Of a DNA stretch of 26,296 bases, positions 7,123 to 26,296 are shown in pieces; position 1 is the first letter of the stretch; each line of letters starts with the position of its first letter. The translations under genes and the position numbers were made by a program. The notes under the pieces are model-generated. The model was not told the origin of the DNA and made no database searches. It was given only the letters and a program-made list of their open reading frames with translations. Source of the DNA: Punctularia strigosozonata HHB-11173 SS5 (taxonomy: Eukaryota > Basidiomycota > Agaricomycetes > Corticiales > Punctulariaceae); assembly GCF_000264995.1 (NCBI RefSeq), contig NW_006767443.1, positions 553,565-579,860 of the forward strand. Reading direction: 5' to 3'.

Positions 7123-9150
7123 ATGGTCGCCACTCGCCTCTTCTTCGCCTCGCTCCTCGCGATCGTCTCTGCCAAGCCCTTTGAGAACTTCGTGGTGCAC
7201 GAGCAGCGCGATGCCGTCCCCTCCGGCTTCAAGGTCAAGGCCCCTGCCAGCCGCGAGACTATGCTCAACCTCCGCCTTGCGCTCACCGAGAGCAACTCGG
7301 CCGGTCTGATCAAGGCCCTGTACGACGTCAGCACCCCGTCCAGCAAGAACTACGGTCAACATCTCGCCAAGGAGGATGTAAGCATCATCCTTCCGCTTAC
7401 GCTTGCGGGTGGCTGATTAGACGCTTGTCCTCGTAGGTTGAGGAGTTTGTCGCTCCCAAGCAGGAGTCCGTGGAAGCTGTCACCGCCTGGCTCAAGGAGA
7501 ACAACATCTCTGCGAAGACCCTCTCCCCCGCCGGTGACTGGCTCGGCTTTTCCGTCTCCGTCGAGGATGCCAGCAAGCTCTTCGACGCGGACTTCTCGGT
7601 CTACACTCATGAGGGTTCCGGCAAGGACATCGTCCGCACCCTCTCGTACTCCATCCCCGCGAGCCTGAAGGAGCACATTGACTTCGTGCACCCCATGACG
7701 ACGTGAGCATTTCCAAAGCTGTCACGATTATCTGTGTCTTAACTCATCGACAGGTTCTCCGCCGTGAACGGCATCAAGCCCAAGGTCTCCGCCTCGGCAC
7801 CGAAGATCGCCTCCAACATCACCGAGGACATCTCCTCCGCCTGCGCTAACCGTGTCACCCCGACCTGCTTGCGCTCGCTGTACGGCATCCCCAAGAAAGC
7901 CGCTTCCGAGAGCTCCAACAAGCTCGCCGTCTCCGGTTTCATCGAGCAGTACGCCAACAAGGCCGACTTGAAGACCTTCCTCGGCAAGTACAGGACCGAC
8001 ATGTCTTCCTCCACCACCTTCACCCTCAAGAAACTTGACGGTGGCAGCAACCCCCAGAGCGGATCGGAGGCCGGCGTTGAGGTGAGACCCTGTCAACGAC
8101 CAGCCCTTTCTCCCATTACTGACAACGTTCTGCGCTTAGGCCAACCTCGACATCCAGTACACCGTCGGCGTCGCTACCGGCGTGCCCACCATCTTCATCT
8201 CCGTCGGCGACGACTACCAGGACGGCGATCTCGAGGGCTTCCTCGACATTGTCAACTACCTCCTTGACGAGGACACTCCTCCCCAGGTCCTGACCACCTC
8301 CTACGGCGAGAACGAGAGCGACATGTCCCGGTCCCTGGCCAAGTACGCTTGATTCATCGTCCACCCCGTTATCGGCGACTGACTCTCCCACAGCAAGCTC
8401 TGCAATGCTTACGCTCAGCTTGGTGCTCGTGGCACTTCCATCCTCTTCGCCTCCGGTGACGGTGGTGTCAGCGGTTCCCAGAGCTCGTCCTGCTCCAAGT
8501 TCGTCCCGACCTTCCCCTCGGGCTGCGTAAGTCTCCCCCCTTCGCATACACCCCGCATTCGCTCACACCGCATGTCTCTCCAGCCGTACTTGACCTCCGT
8601 CGGCGCCACCACCGGCATCAGCCCCGAGACCGCTGCCGACTTCAGCTCCGGCGGCTTCTCCAACTACTTCGACATCCCCGACTACCAGTCCGACGTCCAC
8701 GCCGCCTACCTCAAGAAGCTCGGCTCGACCAACTCCGGCAAGTACAACGCGACCGGCCGCGGCTTCCCCGACGTCGCCGCGCAGGGTGTCAGCGTCGAGG
8801 TCGTCGTCGACGGCTCGACCGAGCCCGTCGACGGTACCTCCTGCGCCTCGCCCATCTTCGCCTCCGTCATCTCGCTCCTCAACGACCAGCTCATCGCCGC
8901 CGGCAAGAGCCCGCTCGGCTTCCTCAACCCGTGGCTGTACGAGAACTCGGACGCGCTCAACGACATCACCTCCGGCGACAACCCGGGATGCAACACCAAC
9001 GGCTTCCCCGCCAAGGCCGGCTGGGACCCCGTCACCGGCCTCGGTACTCCTGGTGAGCATTCTCGTTTGCAGGGTAGCCTGTGGAACATGTCGCTGACTG
9101 GCATGATTCTCCTAGACTTCGACAAGCTCAAGACTGCTGCTGGCTTGTGA
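7123..9150 (+). CDS. Secreted sedolisin (tripeptidyl-peptidase I-like serine-carboxyl peptidase, family S53)
   Basis: Acidic extracellular peptidase, expected to remove tripeptides or cleave proteins at low pH. The exons are 7123-7377, 7437-7702, 7754-8081, 8140-8342, 8394-8526, 8584-9052 and 9116-9150. Spliced they give 562 aa, normal for the family. A signal peptide (MVATRLFFASLLAIVSA) is followed by the S53 propeptide (about residues 30-175). The catalytic set is complete: Glu283 and Asp287 in EANLDIQY, oxyanion Asp373 in FASGDGGVSG, and nucleophile Ser481 in DGTSCASP. The C-terminal NDIT...GWDPVTGLGTP segment is the usual calcium-binding region. All six introns are GT-AG and 51-63 nt long. 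The intron in codon 351 turns an apparent stop (8353) into normal sequence (NKLCNAYAQLGARG). The gene looks intact and active. Whether it is an endo- or tripeptidyl-peptidase cannot be told from the sequence alone. Confidence 0.95.
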
Positions 9151-11882: not shown

Positions 11883-14800
11883 ATGAGCGCGCCGAGAGAC
11901 GACACCATGTCCGTCTCGGACTCGGCCTCGACCTACATCGAAGACCACGCGGAGTTCCGCCGCACGCCGACCTCGCCCCGCCCGGAGCGCATCGACATCG
12001 ACGAGCAGGGCCAGCGCGACGTCACCGAGCTCGCCCGGCGCCTCTCCATCTCCTCCAACGCCCGGCGCCTCTCCACCTCCTCCGCCCACCCCGCCGGCGG
12101 CACCCAGAGCAAGCGCAACAGCCTGCTCCCCTTCTCGCAGACGCTCTCCCCCGCCGTCTCCCGCAACTCGTTCGCGCTCGGCCCGGTCAAGGGCGGCGGC
12201 GGCGACGACGACAAGGCGGGAGACGGGAGCTTGCCGAACCCGTTCGTCGGGACCGACGACCCGAGGCTCGTCCCGGGAAGCGGCGCGTTCGACGTCCGCG
12301 CGTGGATCCGCGCCGTCTTGGACATCACCGAGCGCGAGCCGGAGCGCTTCCCGCAGCGCACCGCCGGCGTCAGCTTCAAGAACCTGTCCGCGTACGGCTT
12401 CGGCAGCTCGACCGACTACCAGAAGGACGTCGGCAACGTCTGGCTCGAGGCGATCGGGTTTTTCAGGAAGTTGTTCGGGGCGGAGAGGGAGCACAAGATC
12501 GATATCCTGCGCAACTTTGACGGGCTGATCCGGAGCGGGGAGACGCTCGTCGTCCTCGGTCGCCCGGGGAGCGGGTGCAGTACGTTTTTGAAAACGTACG
12601 CGGATACGCCATTTTGGTTCCCCGCCTTTGTGATTCGTTCTCATCTCCTCTCTTTTTTGATACAGCATCGCCGGACAGACCCACGGTTTCTTCCTGTCGC
12701 CCGAGACGGAAATCCATTACTCGGGCATTCCGCGAGAGTACTACATCAAGCACTTCAGGGGAGAGGTCATCTACCAGGTACGGGCCCCCCTCCCCGTGGT
12801 CTTTTGAACACCGCGCTCGGATCTGATTTTTTTTTCTATTTCCAGGCAGAGGTCGACGTACACTTCCCGATGCTGACTGTCGGCGAGACGCTCGGCTTCG
12901 CGGCGCTCGCGCGGACGCCGCACAACCGTCCCGAAGGCGTTACCCGCCAGCAGTGGGCGATGCACATGCGCGACGTCGTCATGGCTATCTTCGGTCTCAG
13001 CCATACCGTCAACACCCGCGTCGGGAACGACTTCGTCCGTGGGGTGCGTATCGATTCCATTTCCAGCGGTGGTATGTATGGGAAAAAAAAAGTCTGACGC
13101 GCGCGATGACCCCAGGTTTCGGGCGGTGAACGCAAGCGTGTGTCGATCGCGGAGGCTACTCTGAGCGGTAGTCCGGTACAGTGCTGGGATAACAGTACGC
13201 GAGGATTGGACAGTGCTACCGCGCTTGAGTTTGTGAAGACGTTACGAACCGCATCGGAGGCTGGTGGAGTGTCCAACATCGTCGCAATCTACCAAGCTAG
13301 CCAGGAAGCGTACGACGTCAGTCCATATGCGCATATATTCAGCTGTTTCGCTTAATCGTACGTCCGCAGCTGTTCGACAAGGTCATCCTGCTCTACGAGG
13401 GCCGCCAGATCTTCTTCGGCCCTACGACCGCTGCCAAGGATTATTTCCTTCGGATGGGCTACGACTGCCCACCTCGCCAGACGACCGCGGACTACCTCAC
13501 CTCGATCACCAGCCCAGAGGAGCGCATCGTCCGTCCCGGGTTCGAAGGCCGCGTCCCGCGCACGCCGGACGAGTTCGCCGCCGCGTGGAAGCGGAGCGCC
13601 GAGCATGCTCACCTCATGCGCGAGATCGAGGCGTACGACCACCAGTACCCCGTCGGCGGGCACCACCTCGAGGCGTTCGTCAAGTCGCGCAAGGCGCAGC
13701 AGGCGGACCACGTCAGCTCCAAGTCGCCGTACACGATTTCGTTCCCGATGCAGGTCCGCCTGTGCTTGATGCGCGGGTTCCAGCGGCTGCGGAACGACCT
13801 GTCGATGTTCTTCGTGACGGTGTTCGGCAACTCGATCATGTGTCTGATCATTTCCTCCGTCTTTTTCAACCTCCCCGCGGACACGAGCAGCTTCTTCTCG
13901 CGCGGCGCGTTGCTGTTCTATGCGATCCTCATGAACGCGTTCTCGAGCGCGCTCGAGATCCTCACGCTCTATGTGCAGCGGCCGATCGTGGAGAAGCACA
14001 CGGCGTACGCACTCATCCACCCCGCCGCCGAGGCCCTCGCGTCGATGCTGGTCGACATGCCGGCGAAGATCCTCACCGCCGTCGCGAGCAACCTCATCCT
14101 GTACTTCATGACCAACCTCCGACGAGAACCCGGCGCGTTCTTCATCTTCTTCCTGATCTCGTTCACGACGATGCTCGTGATGAGCATGATCTTCCGCACG
14201 ATCGGCGCCGCCTCGCGGACGCTAGCGCAGGCGATGACGCCCGCCGCGATCTTCATCCTCGCGCTCGTCATCTACACCGGCTTCACCATCCCGACGCGGG
14301 ACATGCACCCCTGGTTCCGGTGGATCAACTACCTGGACCCGATCGGGTACGCGTTCGAGGCGTTGATGGCCAACGAGTTCTCCGGGCGGCGGTACCCCTG
14401 CGCGCAGTTCATCCCCTCCGGGCCAGGGTACGCCGGCGTCTCCGGCCTCGAGCACGTCTGCGCCGTCGTCGGCGGCCAACCGGGCAACGGCTTCGTCGAG
14501 GGCTCGGACTACATCGCGCAGTCGTTCGAGTACAGCCGGGCGCACCTCTGGCGCAACTTTGGGATCCTGATCGGCTTCATGATCGCGTTCTTGGGCACGT
14601 ACCTCGCCGCGACGACGTACATCAGCTCGGCCAAGTCCAAGGGCGAGGTCCTCGTTTTCCGGAAGGGGAACCTGCGCCCGGCGAAGAGGGGGGACGAGGA
14701 GGGCGCGGCGCGCGGGGAGAAGCCGGCGCCGCTCATGGGATCGTCGTCGAACGGGTCGAGCAACGAGACCGCCGCGGACTTGAGCCAGCGGGATATCTTC

Positions 14801-17354
14801 ATGTGGCGCGATGTGGTGCGTTTCCGGTTTCCTGGGCTTGGGAGTTGATCGCGACGCTGAACGAATCGCGGGCAGGTGTACGATATTAAGATCAAGGGAC
14901 AGCCGCGGCGGCTACTTGACCACGTCGACGGATGGGTCCAGCCCGGCAAGCTCACCGCCCTCATGGGCGCTTCCGGCGCTGGGAAGACGACGTTGCTGGA
15001 TACACTCGCCTCTCGAGTGACCATGGGCGTTGTCTCGGGTGATATGCTCGGTACGTTTAAGAGTGTACGATGGATTGGTCGTTGTGCTCATGTTTCCTAT
15101 TTGCAGTCAACGGTCGTCAGCGCGATGCCTCCTTCCAGAGGAAGACCGGTTACGTCCAACAGCAGGATTTGCACCTCCAAACCTCTACCGTCCGTGAAGC
15201 TCTCGAGTTCAGCGCGCTTCTCCGACAGCCGGCGCACGTGAGCAAGAAGGAGAAGCTGGAGTATGTGCAGCAGGTGATCGACTTGCTGGAGATGCGAGAG
15301 GTATGCATACCCCTCCCGTGTGTAGTGGCCGGTCGTTGCTGACTCGGACTGCAGTATGCGGACGCCGTCGTCGGAGTTCCCGGTGAAGGTCTCAACGTGG
15401 AGCAGCGGAAGCGCCTGACCATCGGCGTGGAGCTCGCCGCGAAGCCTCAGCTACTCTTGTTCCTGGTTTGTCACATGCTCCCACTGCATCGCAGACACGA
15501 CTTAACGACATGTACAGGACGAACCCACCAGCGGTCTCGACTCGCAGACGGCCTGGTCTATTCTCAGTTTGCTGCGCAAGTTAGCCAACCACGGGCAGGC
15601 CATCCTGTGTACCATCCATCAACCTAGCGCGCAGCTGTTCTCGGAGTTTGATCGTCTGCTCTTCTTGGCGAAAGGTGGGGCTCATCGAGTACTCTGCCCG
15701 CCTGCGGATAGCTAACCACGACTTGGATCTCTTCTCTAGGCGGTCGTACGGTGTACTTTGGAGATCTCGGGGAAGATTCGAGGAACCTGATTGACTACTT
15801 TGAGCGAAACGGGGCGGATCCATGCCCACCTGCTGCGAACCCGGCGGATTGGATGTTGCGTGGGTGCTTGTCCTGTTGGAACGCTGCTTACCTGCTAACC
15901 CTCACGTGCTCCTTCTCTGCAGAGGTCATCGGAGCTGCGCCCGGCGCCGTCGCCAAGCGTGATTGGCCCGAGGTCTGGAAGGAGAGCCCTGAACGTCAAA
16001 ACATCCGGGCCGAGATCGGTAAAATGGAGCGCGAGTTGTCTGGCAGGCCCATTCAAGAAGACGCAAGCCCTCGATCATTTGCTGCTTCGCATTTCTCGCA
16101 ATACTGCCTCGTAACGAGGAGGGTTTTCCAGCAGTGCGTGCTTTTACTCGTGGAGTTTTGGGCCACACGTTGATGTCACCGTTGCAGGTATTGGCGTACC
16201 CCAAGCTACATCTACGCGAAGTTGACGCTATCCACTGTCACGGCCGCGTTCATCGGGTTCTCGTTCTGGCAGGCGAAGAGGAACCAGCAGGGCTTGCAGA
16301 ACCAGGTGAGCCCAGGGACGAAGCACGCATTCCCAGTGAATGGCTTGCTCACGTCTTCTCTATAGATGTTTAGCATCTTCATGCTCATGACTGCGTTCGG
16401 CAACATGGTACAACAAATCATGCCCCAGTTCGTGACTCAACGTGCCCTTTACGAGGTCAGGGAGCGCCCTAGCAAGACCTTCGGCTGGCCGGCGTTCATG
16501 CTCGCTCAGCTGACTGTGGAGCTGCCTTGGCGTACGTTCAAAGCGTTACGTCTTTCGATCATTACTTGATACTGACACGACTTTGCAGAAACCATCGCTG
16601 CACTTTTGGCCTTCGTCCTGATCTACTATCCGATTGGCCTGAACCATAATGCCGCGTTTGCCCATGAAACGGCGGAACGCAGCGGGCTGTTCTTCATGCT
16701 CGTTCTTGAGTTCTATATATTCACAAGCACGTTCGCGACCATGGTCATCGCTGGCGTCGAGGACGCGACTACTGGCGGCAACTTCGCCAACCTCATGTTC
16801 AAGTACGCAGCATGGCTTCGCTTCGTTCACGACCGATTTTGACCGATTTTGATCTTCCCAACAGCCTTTGTCTCATCTTCACTGGAGTTCTCGCCACTCC
16901 TGCACAGTTCCCGCATTTCTGGATATTCATGTACGACGTCTCACCTTTCCGATACTTGGTGCAAGCCATGCTGTCCGTCGGCCTCGCCCACGCCCCTGTC
17001 AAATGCTCGTCCATCGAGATCAGAACGTTCAACCCGCCCTCGGGCCAGACCTGCGGGCAGTACCTCCAGTCGTACATCGCCGCGGCCGGCGGCTCCGTCT
17101 CTAATCCCGACGCGACCTCCGGCTGCGAGTTCTGCTCGCTCACGACGACGGACGAGTTCCTGGACCAGATCAACGCGCACTTTTCCGAGCGCTGGCGGAA
17201 CTGGGGCCTGCTGATCGTCTACATCTCGTTCAACATCATGGCGTCCCTCGTCCTGTACTGGCTCATGCGGGTGCCGAAGGGGAACCGGGTGGAGAAGGCC
17301 GCGTCGGCGGAGCCTGTACAAGGGGACAAGAAGACGGAGGAGCTGCCGCATTAG
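11883..17354 (+). CDS. PDR/ABCG-type full-size ABC transporter (multidrug efflux pump)
   Basis: Plasma-membrane ATP-driven exporter of hydrophobic compounds. The exons are 11883-12595, 12666-12777, 12846-13043, 13116-13316, 13370-14815, 14876-15050, 15107-15300, 15355-15465, 15518-15674, 15740-15859, 15923-16133, 16188-16305, 16366-16531, 16589-16802 and 16865-17354. They give 1541 aa in the order NBD1-TMD1-NBD2-TMD2. NBD1 has the degenerate fungal PDR set: Walker [10 protein letters not shown] with Cys232 for Lys, signature VSGGERKR (342-349), Walker B ending WDN (Asn367) and Tyr400 in the H-loop. NBD2 has a normal Walker [10 protein letters not shown] (Lys927), Walker B with DEPTSGLD (1051-1058) and His1084, but a degenerate signature LNVEQRKR. 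This asymmetry is typical of the family, with one functional ATP site. The N-terminus is Ser-rich and probably regulatory. TMD1 is about 535-800 and TMD2 about 1213-1530. It appears intact. The substrate is unknown. Confidence 0.95.
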
Positions 17355-21489: not shown

Positions 21490-23020
21490 ATGCATCACCT
21501 ACGAATGTCCAAATCGAAGCGGAAATGCTCTCAGCCTCCATATGCACAACCGTTTCTAGAAGGCACGCCTACATCTCCAGCCTCATCGCCCCGGTCGTCC
21601 CAGGATAAGCCTCTGCCCGAGGCGCCGGACGAGCAGCGTAAAAGCCACTCTGCAAACCTCGCGCACAAACTGGACGACCTCATTCATCATCATCAGCATC
21701 CTCGGACCAGCTGGAAGACTCGCAAGAGATTCGGCAACAGCTTCATGATGAGACGCTCTACCAATCCGGAGGGACCCTACGATACCCAACGAGGAAGTCC
21801 ATCTCGCCCCGCGCCGATCTACAATGGTCCCGACGGCAGGTATCCTCAAGCTGGTACTGGGGCTTCACGTTTCATACCTTCTGACCCATTCTCTGCTGCG
21901 ATGGACTCTGGCTCACCTCCACATGCTGCTCCAACAATGTCATCGAGAAGTGGCTCGCGTTCTTGCTCTGCTCCCTCTCCGTACTCCGGTCCGGGCTCTG
22001 TAGCCGTTCTTGCATCGTCGACTCGCCTAGCGGAACCGTCTCGGTCATCATCTGACGATACCAGCAAACCGGGTATTGGCAACCGCAACCCCGCAAAGAG
22101 GCTATCCCGACTCAGCATGGTGGAATCAAGCATGTCCCTCTCTGGTATTCTCCAAGCCCTAGGGCCCAGAATTAGATACAGCCCTGCGTTTAGTGCCTCT
22201 CGTGCAATAAGCTCCTACCGGTCGACGGGTGACTCGAATCCGCCTATGTCTCCTTGTCTGAGCACCAACGAGCTACGCTTCCTTGAGTCTCTGCAGCCCA
22301 GACCGGGGACCCCTGGACGCCGCCCCGCAGGTTCTGTCGACCCCTTCTCTTCATTCTTCGAGTCTTCGTCAACAGTTTCGACTCTGGACGGTCTGCGGGA
22401 TTGGATGACTATCTCGCCTAGCCCCTCTGCGAAGACGTTGATTATATCTGCGGCAAGCTCCACTGCTCTTGGGCTGCCCAGAGACGCTAGAGGAGAGCGG
22501 GCAATGCCTCTGAATGCGACTGCAACAGCGACTTCTGCCAGCCCCGCCTCGGAAGTGTGTGGAAGTCCGAAATCGCTCTATGCTGGCTGCCTCCTTATGG
22601 ACGCTTCCGCGACGTCATGTGGCACCACGGGACTCGGCATTTCAACGTTGCTGCAGGCAAGCCCGCGCCTGCCCTATTTGGCGACCGTCGCGTCCTTTGG
22701 CGTCGCCAAGGAGCTTTTCGACGTCATATATGTCCCGCAGTCCTCTGCACCTTCCACGCCTCCGCGGGACTCCCTAAACAGCGGTGTTCCGGCGCTCGCA
22801 GACGTCGCCTCTGACACGGACGATGATGAGGGAGATGAACCTCTGGATCTTGGTAGGATTTTGGACCTCTTCCCGCTGCCTCCCCGCCATCAAAGCTGGG
22901 GCGATCGCAAAGCGTCTACGACGGCGGATTCCTTGAGTAAGTACTTGATCTCCTTTTCGATCATTACTTTGCTGAGTGCCCGCGTTAGTTTTGCCTTTTG
23001 GAGTGCCAATGAACTCGTGA
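21490..23020 (+). CDS. Ser/Pro-rich hypothetical protein, unknown function
   Basis: A long open frame from ATG 21490 (second Met at 21505) runs uninterrupted for about 480 codons. A GTAAGT donor at 22937 and an acceptor ending at 22988 define a 52-nt intron. Splicing gives 492 aa ending SLILPFGVPMNS at TGA 23018-23020; without splicing the frame would run to 23052. The protein is rich in Ser, Pro and Thr. It has a His-rich tract (DDLIHHHQHP), a basic segment (SWKTRKRFGNSFMMRRS) and a C-terminal acidic stretch (SDTDDDEGDEPLDLGRILDLFPLPPRHQSW) that looks like the most conserved part. No enzymatic domain or membrane segment is apparent. Such composition suggests an intrinsically disordered regulatory or signalling protein. 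It lies tail-to-tail with the NRPS-type fragment. Confidence 0.68.
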
Positions 23021-23215
23021 GAAAGATATGGAGGCAACGACAGCAAACCTAGACGTCTCCGTGCATGTTATCAACTACCAGCCGGCTTTCTGCGCCCGAG
23101 GACGTATCCATGCAATGTCCAGCGCGCACTCCGACGCCGGTCGTGAGCGGGAATAATGTTTATTTCCGTGATGATTACAATAATGTCCACATGATTATAT
23201 GTCTGCATATATTAA
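23021..23215. other. Convergent intergenic spacer
   Basis: A 195-bp AT-rich gap (GATGATTACAATAATG, CATATATTAATCACA) between two convergent gene ends, presumably carrying both polyadenylation regions. Confidence 0.4.
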
Positions 23216-24541
23216 TCACAATTTGACCAGCTCTGCCTGACGTCGCACTGAATCTGCCGCTATGAGTGAAGTCAACGCCACCTTCTGCTTCGATCGCAAG
23301 AATAGGCGGGATAACTGCATCCATTTCAACGAGTCACCTGAAAAAACATCGCGTCAGCGAACGCGAGACCTTCGAAGGTATCCTGTTTACCTCCAAGATC
23401 GGCGAACGGTGTATCCAGCCCAATCTGGGTGGCTTTCAGCCCCAGCACAGTCGCCCAAAGCCCGCGGACGAGATCTACCCTCGGGTCATGGGCTTCAGCC
23501 ACACTACTGTCGGCGCCTCCATTGGGCTGACCATTCAGATGCCCGTTCGCATGCCCATTATCGTGACCATTTGACTGCTTTTTCGGTGTTTTCAGGCGAG
23601 TATTCATATGCGTTTCGTAAGCTGCCTGCAGTTCGACCACGTCTAACTTGCCGGAGAGGTTGACTGGAAGACGGGGAAGCACGACGAACGTCGATGGCGC
23701 AACCAAAAGCTTCTTGGTGACTGGCGCCCATTTCACTGTAAGATCTACCGAGACGTCGCGCCGAACTACGACAAAAGCAACGAGAGTTTTCGCCCCCGCG
23801 GCGTCGCTCATAGGCACGACTGCCACCTGGTCCAGCTCCGGTATCTCCTTGCGAAGCGCTTCCTCGATCTCTTCTGGATCAACGCGCTGACCTCTGATCT
23901 TCTGCTGGCGGTCCTTGCGGGACACGAAGTCAAGAGTTCCGTCGGGAACGAGGCGCACGATGTCTCCGGTCCTGTACCCACGTTCGCGATGACCGGGTGT
24001 GGTCTCGACAAGCGCAAAGGCTTTGGCGTTCAGGTCACCGCGGCTAAGGTAACCCGGAGAGACTTGCGGTCCGCCAATGCAAAGCTCGCCGGTAGCGCCG
24101 TAGGGCAATGGTCTCAGATGTTCGTCAACGACAACCGCGATGTTGTCGCCGAAAACCTTGCCCAATGGGATCCTGCCGATGCCGACTGAACGGGCGTCCA
24201 TGACGTTCCGTGTAACCTCGACAGTGCACTCCGCAGGTCCGTAATGGTTGGAGACTCGTCGTATGCCGTTGCGAAGCAGACGATCGCGCAAATCGGGCCC
24301 GAACGACTCTCCACCCAGTATGACATCCGTCAGACTCTCCAGCTTCTCGTCCACCAGTAGCCTTGCGACGGTGGGCGTGACATTCACAATTTCAACCTGC
24401 ATGCTACGCACGAGCCCTGGTAAATCTTCTTTCAAGGCTGTGTCGGGAGCGATGCATAGGCAACCACCCGCCGACAACGTCCCGAAGACTTGCACGATAG
24501 AGGCATCGAAATTCAGGGAGGCACCCCAGAGCAGGCGCCCT
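23216..24541 (-). pseudogene. 5'-truncated NRPS-type adenylation and thiolation domains
   Basis: The exons (minus strand) are 24541-23391 and 23337-23216. The 53-nt intron (GTAAAC..CAG) splits the codon after LG and restores the carrier motif LGGDSLKWMQ, whose Ser is the phosphopantetheine site. The adenylation domain starts abruptly at LLWGASLNFDAS (core A4). It continues with NHYGPAE (A5), GELCIGGPQVSPGYL (A6), YRTGDIVRL (A7), DRQQKIRGQRVDPEEIEE (A8) and NLSGKLD (A10, with the catalytic Lys). An Asn-Gly-His-rich linker (NGHDNGHANGHLNGQPNG) joins it to a complete thiolation domain, then a stop at 23216-23218. Motifs A1-A3, including the ATP-binding loop, are missing because at 24541 the sequence changes into an antisense PAL fragment. 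The remaining part has no internal stop or frameshift, so the break is recent or an assembly join. The product and amino-acid specificity are unknown. Confidence 0.85.
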
Positions 24542-24552
24542 TTATACGGACG

Positions 24553-25360
24553 CGAGGGTACACGCACGAGACTATCAAGCTCGTCCGGATGCTCATGGCG
24601 ACGCATATCTACGCCCTATGCCAGGCCGCGGACTTGCGCGCGATGCAGGTCGAGTTCCGCAAAGAGCTCTTCGAGCTGATTCGCGCAGAGACTGTCGCGC
24701 GCTTCGCCTTCGTCGCCGACTCGCCCGAATTCGAGGCAGGTCTGCTGCTCGCGCTGCGGAACAGGGTGGTAGTGCTGTTGAACGAGACCGTCGACCAGGA
24801 CGCACGCCCGCGCTTCCACAAGGTATTCACCGGGCTCACTGCGACGCTCTCGAGCAAGCTGGTCGAGGTCGACGCGGGCGTGAAGCTCGGCGACGTCGAC
24901 GCGTGGAGGGCGGCCCTCGTCGAAAAGGCGACGGAGACATTCGTGCGCTTGCGCGAGGCATACCAGCCAGGGCCGGAGTCGCTTGCGAGCCAGATCTTGG
25001 GCAAGACGAGGACACTGAACGCATTTGTGCGCGGGGAGCTCGGCGTGAAGATGCACTGCGGTGACCCTGTCAAGGACGCGACGAAGATCGGTACGGAGAT
25101 CAGCAAGGTACGCATGAGCTTGGTGTGATATCGAGAATGGGAGCTGATGGGCTTGTCGCTGACAGATTTTCCGCGCGTTCGAGACGCCGAGAATGGGCGA
25201 GGTGCTGCTGGAGATTATGCAGGGCCGGATCTCTGGATCCGCTACCAATGGGCATGCGAACGGTCATGCCGATGGACATGCGAATGGACATGCGAACGGC
25301 CACGCCAACGGGGCGAACGGCGCGAAGCTGAATGGAAATCACAACGGTTACATACACTAA
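24553..25360 (+). pseudogene. 5'-truncated phenylalanine ammonia-lyase, C-terminal third
   Basis: PAL removes ammonia from phenylalanine to give trans-cinnamate. The exons are 24553-25107 and 25166-25360, with a 58-nt GT-AG intron. About 249 residues remain of an expected 700 or so. Recognisable parts are ATHIYALCQAADLRAMQVEF, LVEKATETFVRLREAY, TRTLNAFVRGELGVKM and ISKIFRAFETPRMGEVL. A tail rich in NGHANGHADGHANG repeats ends at TAA 25358-25360. The MIO-forming Ala-Ser-Gly and the whole catalytic half are missing: the reading frame runs left into antisense NRPS sequence near 24541-24555. The rest has no lesion. Histidine ammonia-lyase is less likely given the fungal PAL-like C-terminus. Confidence 0.82.
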
Positions 25361-25443
25361 AGGACGTATTGCTGGTAGAAAACATGGGTTATAATGAAGG
25401 TGTACGAGGGACGGGACGGAGTGCGAATGGAACGAGCGGCTAG

Positions 25444-25746
25444 TGTAGATATAAGTCTCACTGCTCGGGTAAGGGAGCAAGTCGTATTCATGTACCTAGT
25501 GTAGATATAACTACGGTACATTAGCTTTCGGTACAGGGTATATAGACAAAAGAGGGACTCACGTCTCACTGCTCGGGTAAGGGAGCAAGTGAGACGTGCG
25601 CTCGCGAAAATGAGACGATTATCTGAAGACGGAAGTATAAGTTTTCGTGTCCGCATATGTCCATACCACGCGAAGGCGCGCGCGCCGCGCGCGCAACGGC
25701 CGACACGGCGTCCGCTTGCATGCTCATCAACCATCTATCTCCAACA
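25444..25746 (-). mobile_element. Probable LTR of a retroelement (Ty1/Copia-like), minus orientation
   Basis: On the minus strand the segment begins TGTTGGAGATAG and ends CTTATATCTACA, giving TG..CA ends over 303 nt. Immediately upstream on that strand is a purine-rich tract (TTGAGGGGGAG) like a polypurine tract, so this would be the 3' LTR. A TATA-like CTATATACCC lies inside at about 25537-25546. Two identical 28-nt repeats (25455-25482 and 25563-25590) are contained in it. No matching LTR or reverse transcriptase is present in the window, and no target duplication can be tested, so the call depends on the terminal structure only. Confidence 0.5.
25560..25598. repeat. Strong hairpin inside the LTR-like segment
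   Basis: The arms CACGTCTCACTGCTC and GAGCAAGTGAGACGTG pair with a single bulged base around an 8-nt loop. The left arm and loop are copied at 25455-25482, but there the far end of the stem is lost. Confidence 0.65.
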
Positions 25747-25756
25747 CTCCCCCTCA
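25747..25756 (-). promoter_or_regulatory. Polypurine tract of the LTR element
   Basis: Read on the minus strand this is TGAGGGGGAG, directly abutting the TGTTGGAG start of the LTR-like segment, the position where plus-strand DNA synthesis is primed in retroelements. Confidence 0.45.
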
Positions 25757-26296
25757 AGCATCAGGAAAAACCCCATCTGGCAATTTTCTACATATATACA
25801 TACATGGTTCATAATATGATCATATTCTGTCCAAATTGTCACAAAAAAGCCAAAAAATCCCATAAAACTGTCAAATCATGACAGATGACAGACTAATCAG
25901 AGGACTTCCTTATAGGTACAAGGGGACTTAGAACTAATAACATAGGAAATGTGGTTGCAGTGTCAATAACATTAGCACTGGTCCTGTCCAAGGGGCTTAG
26001 AGAACAAATGTAGATATAAGTGTTGGAGTTGGGGATTGATACTTGACTGTTGACACCTCACCCTGGCCTGGCCCCATCTGTAACATCATATCATCCCATA
26101 TAGTAACAGCTTATATACTACATGTACATCTGAAAGACAGAGATTTCCATAGCTAACACATCATGGTTATGAACCCTCCAGATTACTGATGGCCAGGAGA
26201 CACTGTTGTGGTGCTTTTATCTCAGGTATAGTTAACTTGTCTCATGTCCCATTCAGCTATCACTAACAACTCGATGAGCTCAAAATATCTGTATGT
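25757..26296. mobile_element. Non-coding, probable internal or nested retroelement sequence
   Basis: AT-rich relative to the rest of the window, with no open reading frame of note. TGTAGATATAAG, the outer end of the LTR-like segment, recurs at 26009-26020. It is followed at once by TGTTGGAGTTGGGG (26021), which resembles the start of another LTR. Imperfect repeats AAGGGGACTTAGAACTAAT (about 25919) and AAGGGGCTTAGAGAACAAAT (about 25990) are also present. No reverse transcriptase or RNase H motif was seen. Confidence 0.35.

Follow-up and report, generated by a model that had tools for sequence, protein, structure and literature searches.

In a 26,296-nt stretch of Punctularia strigosozonata DNA (the window; C11:553565-579860 of a 33.57-Mb, 32-contig assembly), the 3′ part of an NRPS gene on the minus strand and the 3′ part of a PAL gene on the plus strand lie head to head, both truncated at their 5′ ends and neither with its missing part found in the assembled genome. 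We consider it probable, with moderate confidence, that one deletion ran through a head-to-head pair of NRPS and PAL neighbours and left both 3′ parts joined. The junction is probably real rather than an assembly fault, and both remnants should be inactive, judging from their sequence, because the PAL part is without the ASG (MIO) triad and the NRPS part is without the adenylation-domain half that holds TSGSTGxPKG. An earlier note on this DNA had placed the start of NRPS adenylation homology in mid-domain at about 24541 (minus strand) and that of PAL homology at about 24553 (plus strand), two-thirds into the protein, with the two abutting within about 15 bp and no other lesion in either fragment. 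Our comparisons bear out each of these points: the gap between the homologies is 12 bp, or 9 bp with the Pfam edge, and both frames are open with one putative intron each (Table 1).

Table 1 Features at and beside the junction (window coordinates unless a contig or locus is named)
Feature	Position	Strand	Basis or remark
NRPS 3′ part	23216..24540	-	Pfam PF00501 205-384, PF13193, PF00550; splicing predicted
Intron in carrier domain, 53 nt, GT...AG	23390-23338	-	Putative; splicing raises PP-binding score
Junction, ~12 bp outside both homologies	24541..24552		Homology edges on either side
PAL 3′ part, RYT motif to stop	24553..25360	+	Structure, relative and genome comparisons; alignment
Intron in PAL fragment, 58 nt	25108..25165	+	Putative; spliced frame gives IFRAFETPRMGEVL, as in relatives
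Target-site duplication GGTTA, 5 bp	25387..25391		Other copy at L013:9431-9435
3′ LTR of Copia-type element, 355 bp	25392..25746	-	5′ LTR at C11:588936-589290

Two gene fragments and their edges

On the NRPS side, PF00501 (AMP-binding) matches the minus-strand ORF over profile positions 205–384 of 384 (E 2.5e-27), and this match starts at ORF residue 22 (window 24543-24541), so that the mid-domain start proposed earlier holds to within 1–2 bases. The queries used to place the edge, in both the Pfam and the solved-structure searches, took in 21–22 residues upstream of it; in the comparison with solved NRPSs, no best stretch among the best 60 matches starts before ORF residue 19. The ranking of relatives was run with a query starting at 24540, so its alignment starts are uninformative on the edge, which was taken from the longer queries instead. 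From the break, the fragment reads through the second half of the adenylation domain, an NGH-rich linker and a complete carrier (PCP) domain with the GGDSL serine, to a stop codon at 23218-23216; PF13193 (AMP-binding_C) scores just under the cut-off. With the predicted splicing, the PP-binding match (PF00550) rises from 20.8 to 41.5 bits, and the spliced domain spans positions 2–66 of 67 and reads on into LGGDSLKW. On that splicing, the fragment thus holds a carrier domain with both the PP-binding match and the GGDS serine. The adenylation domain is incomplete, without its TSGSTGxPKG half; in the 10 stretches of relatives examined, TSG(S/T)TGxPKG lies upstream of the break position. Relatives are 27–41% identical among the matches listed (the best 120 of 581 and 120 of 2412), and the one basidiomycete we recognise among these NRPS matches is Ramaria rubella (P0171, ~33%). 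NGHANGH-type repeats occur in the linker (23500-23620, minus strand).

On the PAL side, homology sets in between 24553 and 24559, at an RYT motif that aligns with residue 473 in the closest relative. This relative, the PAL of Agrocybe pediades (P0001, 677 aa), matches from residue 472, which falls at window 24553 and agrees with the earlier placement of the edge two-thirds into the protein. The PAL structures 1t6j and 1y2m match from chain residues 511 and 513, respectively (E 6.5e-17 and 6.6e-17). A Pfam search of the fragment alone gave 0 families, as expected given that the PF00221 model stops at P0001 residue 501, and the family assignment therefore rests on the structure matches, the relatives, P0001 and the alignment. 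All 14 matches of a protein search with the fragment carry PF00221 (best E 7.1e-58), a significant C-terminal similarity that identifies the fragment as a PAL homologue by descent. Thirteen of the 14 are named (Agrocybe, Gymnopilus, Botryobasidium, Serpula, Lentinula and Pisolithus), all of them mushroom-forming fungi of the class Agaricomycetes.

In an alignment of the fragment with seven relatives, drawn from 7 of these 14 matches, the conserved NSLAL(I/M)S(A/G/V) block just before RYT is absent from the window, and similarity is abrupt from RYT onward. The sole oddity at this edge is one extra residue, R-G-Y-T against the R-Y-T of the relatives. The ASG (MIO) region, which supplies the MIO-forming triad of PAL, is absent from the fragment: in P0001, ASGD lies at residue 177 onward, and the fragment sets in only at residue 472–473. 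The frame ends at a stop codon at 25358-25360, preceded by an NGHANGH-rich tail; the C-terminus of a Serpula relative (P0004) carries a similar NGHANGHANG...GYVN tail. The tail repeats are of the NGHANGH type (25250-25360, plus strand), and a frame at the start of the other PAL gene of this genome, on contig C2, carries repeats of this kind as well.

State of the frames and base composition

With one putative intron each, both frames are open, and the C-terminus of the PAL fragment fits that of its relatives. According to a neutral-drift estimate in which indels are ignored, a pair like this would have a chance below 5% of being free of stops beyond ~0.06 substitutions per site. The open frames suggest that the break is recent; they reflect either a recent break or lasting constraint, of which the recent break is simpler. 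A rival reading is that the truncated frames still serve a purpose, perhaps through expression of a carrier-domain protein or a PAL C-terminal-domain protein. The frames are long and open, and of 52 positions that do not vary among the seven relatives, the PAL fragment differs at 6, which falls within the spread of the relatives (0 of 46 to 8 of 54). We nevertheless give this possibility almost no credence, since the fragments are without a 5′ part, the ASG triad and the first half of the adenylation domain, and recent breakage accounts for the open frames equally well. For annotation, no active PAL or NRPS should be called at this locus.

GC content at the three codon positions is 0.68/0.43/0.63 in the NRPS fragment and 0.64/0.40/0.86 in the PAL fragment; elsewhere in the window, third-position GC (GC3) is 0.93 in an ABC transporter gene, 0.90 at 8572-9150, 0.71 in Leo1 and 0.57 at 21490-23052. 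The GC3 difference between the fragments (0.63 vs 0.86) would also fit unrelated origins, which counts against a deletion within a gene pair and favours two independent truncations ending at the same place, such as two deletions or the insertion of an old fragment. Such a coincidence is very improbable, however, since edges ~12 bp apart and two open frames point to one event. A promoter scan across the junction with a bacterial model came out empty, a result that carries no information for a fungus.

Search for the missing 5′ parts

Six-frame searches of the 33.6-Mb assembly that contains the window turned up neither an orphan 5′ part of a PAL gene nor an orphan 5′ half of an NRPS adenylation domain, within the limits set by the first-look filters, the runs of N and NRPS queries of low identity. 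Full-length P0001 gave five matches, one to the window fragment and four to blocks of a gene on C2, to which all three Lyase_aromatic matches also belong. This gene (C2 79630-81815, at least four blocks) is the sole other PAL gene found in the assembly. A recent duplication of it was rejected as the source of the fragment: the two are 34% identical, compared with 53–55% between the fragment and the Agrocybe PAL, and the fragment, being closer to the latter, is therefore a separate paralogue. The C2 gene also bears on whether the onset of PAL homology could be an exon boundary. Frame reading puts an intron of that gene before SLALISAR, some eight codons 5′ of where the break falls; exon loss was thus dismissed, because the SLALISAR block is missing here although the intron lies before it, and because the PAL 5′ exons were not found elsewhere in the assembly beyond the C2 gene.

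For the NRPS half, the AMP-binding profile search scored 14 of 47 first-look candidates and returned 18 matches; since not all candidates had been scored, NRPS 5′ halves were added as queries. Two different adenylation 5′ halves gave four matches each (E up to 1). Loci at C6:622 kb, C14:458 kb, C14:643 kb and C16:16 kb were rejected as orphan halves, as their matches flank or cross the break position; likewise, the AMP-binding matches with no obvious partner were those at C14:643560, C6:77381 and C2:2413438, which cross profile position 205, and that at C1:2637082, which resumes downstream at 272–383; three of these were also checked by frame reading. The other two matches of the 5′-half queries, at C1:3252715 (E 0.056) and C15:499749 (E 0.83), were discarded because neither matched any of four adenylation domains at E 0.01; judged by eye from a motif, the former looks like a glycoside hydrolase. 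The assembly holds eight condensation-domain matches, six on C16 and two on C6. A multi-domain NRPS with condensation and adenylation blocks lies near the start of C16 (4855-16541); TAG occurs inside two of its matched stretches and may mark introns or lesions.

The earlier note had read the junction as the mark of a recent inversion or translocation, or of a mis-joined assembly; if real, two genes would have been lost by one event, with the missing 5′ halves expected together elsewhere in reciprocal order. Loss by one recent event is supported, in that both genes are cut at one point and both frames are open; the inversion or translocation is not, since the assembly yielded no orphan half of either gene and no reciprocal junction bearing both 5′ halves. 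An inversion or translocation that broke a PAL and an NRPS gene would account for the single meeting point of two unrelated genes. With no 5′ half of either gene, and hence no reciprocal junction, recovered from 33.6 Mb, the reciprocal pieces would need to have been lost later or left unassembled, and we regard this course as unlikely.

A misjoin or chimeric read, in which two loci, both intact in the fungus itself, were fused in error, is unlikely too. Runs of N occur at C11:518612-527335, 542068-553564, 579861-584329 and other positions; the latter two named here directly flank the window, which may thus be a single scaffold island, and this speaks for a misjoin. The window itself contains no N, and in a DNA-level search of the genome each fragment matches itself only, so that no repeat accounts for a misjoin. 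Moreover, the other halves of two intact loci should be assembled, yet they were not found.

Flanking sequence

Beyond the PAL fragment lies a Copia-type LTR element that starts 31 bp past the PAL stop codon and ~840 bp from the junction. Its two LTRs are identical at 353 of 355 positions, GGTTA stands beside both outer ends, and a gag-pol frame inside it (L013:4943-9043, minus strand) matches Pfam RVT_2 and a copia-type gag; the span of the element includes 4469 bases of N. This is a separate, young insertion. We rejected it as the cause of the break, because it starts beyond the PAL 3′ end and has its own target-site duplication. From ~25750 to 26296, the sequence has many diverged copies elsewhere and may represent a second, nested element. 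On the other side, a PDR/CDR-type ABC transporter gene is present at 11883-14848 (plus strand), probably continuing to 17354; it may have nothing to do with the locus, or may once have served a cluster as its transporter.

Discussion

The explanation we favour is a deletion in a divergent gene pair. In the ancestral order, an NRPS gene on the minus strand would have been followed, on the plus strand, by a second PAL paralogue, with the two transcribed apart. A deletion of at least ~2 kb, presumably one event, would then have taken out the intergenic region, the first ~470 PAL residues (MIO active site included) and, in the NRPS, at least the first half of its adenylation domain, so that the two 3′ parts came to lie end to end with ~12 bp between them. 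This sequence of steps, which the earlier note did not list, is ranked first because it leaves no missing pieces to explain: an inversion or translocation must also lose its reciprocal product, and a misjoin must leave both partner halves unassembled. Against it, besides the difference in GC3, stand the nearby runs of N, owing to which the missing pieces may simply have escaped assembly.

Also against it, the pair does not stand out as a widely conserved cluster, since none of the genera of the PAL relatives is named among the NRPS matches listed (the best 120 of 581 and 120 of 2412), in which many rows are nameless and candidates were limited by length. It is conceivable, if rather improbable, that a lineage-specific NRPS cluster with a dedicated PAL-family enzyme (a lyase or aminomutase), feeding in a phenylalanine-derived block, has just been lost here; if so, the intact genes of sister strains would specify a basidiomycete peptide of a new type. 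The deletion, if real, provides a clean and recent case of one event between divergent genes killing two metabolic neighbours, and the locus would point to a lost NRPS with only distant relatives among the matches listed.

The nearest counterparts of the PAL fragment are basidiomycete paralogues of the P0001 type from Agrocybe pediades, with up to 55% identity over the fragment, compared with which the window copy starts only at RYT and so has no ASG (MIO) region. Among listings of the literature on PAL–NRPS associations in fungi and on partial cluster deletions, no such pair is described. What we report adds one more example to a familiar kind of gene decay; the mechanism is ordinary and no new biological system is involved. 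Half-gene deletions are known from fungal metabolite clusters, where gliM is described as having lost its second half and fmqE its first (PMC5711037; PLoS Biol. 2017). The half-gene loss by deletion in these clusters resembles the one proposed here; according to that paper, other strains keep the intact gene, whereas in the window two adjacent genes are cut, apparently by one event. A PAL gene within a basidiomycete biosynthetic cluster has a precedent in str11 of the strobilurin cluster, which feeds a synthase (PMC6158276); as described there, that cluster is intact and based on a polyketide synthase, whereas the remnant in the window is broken and belongs to an NRPS.
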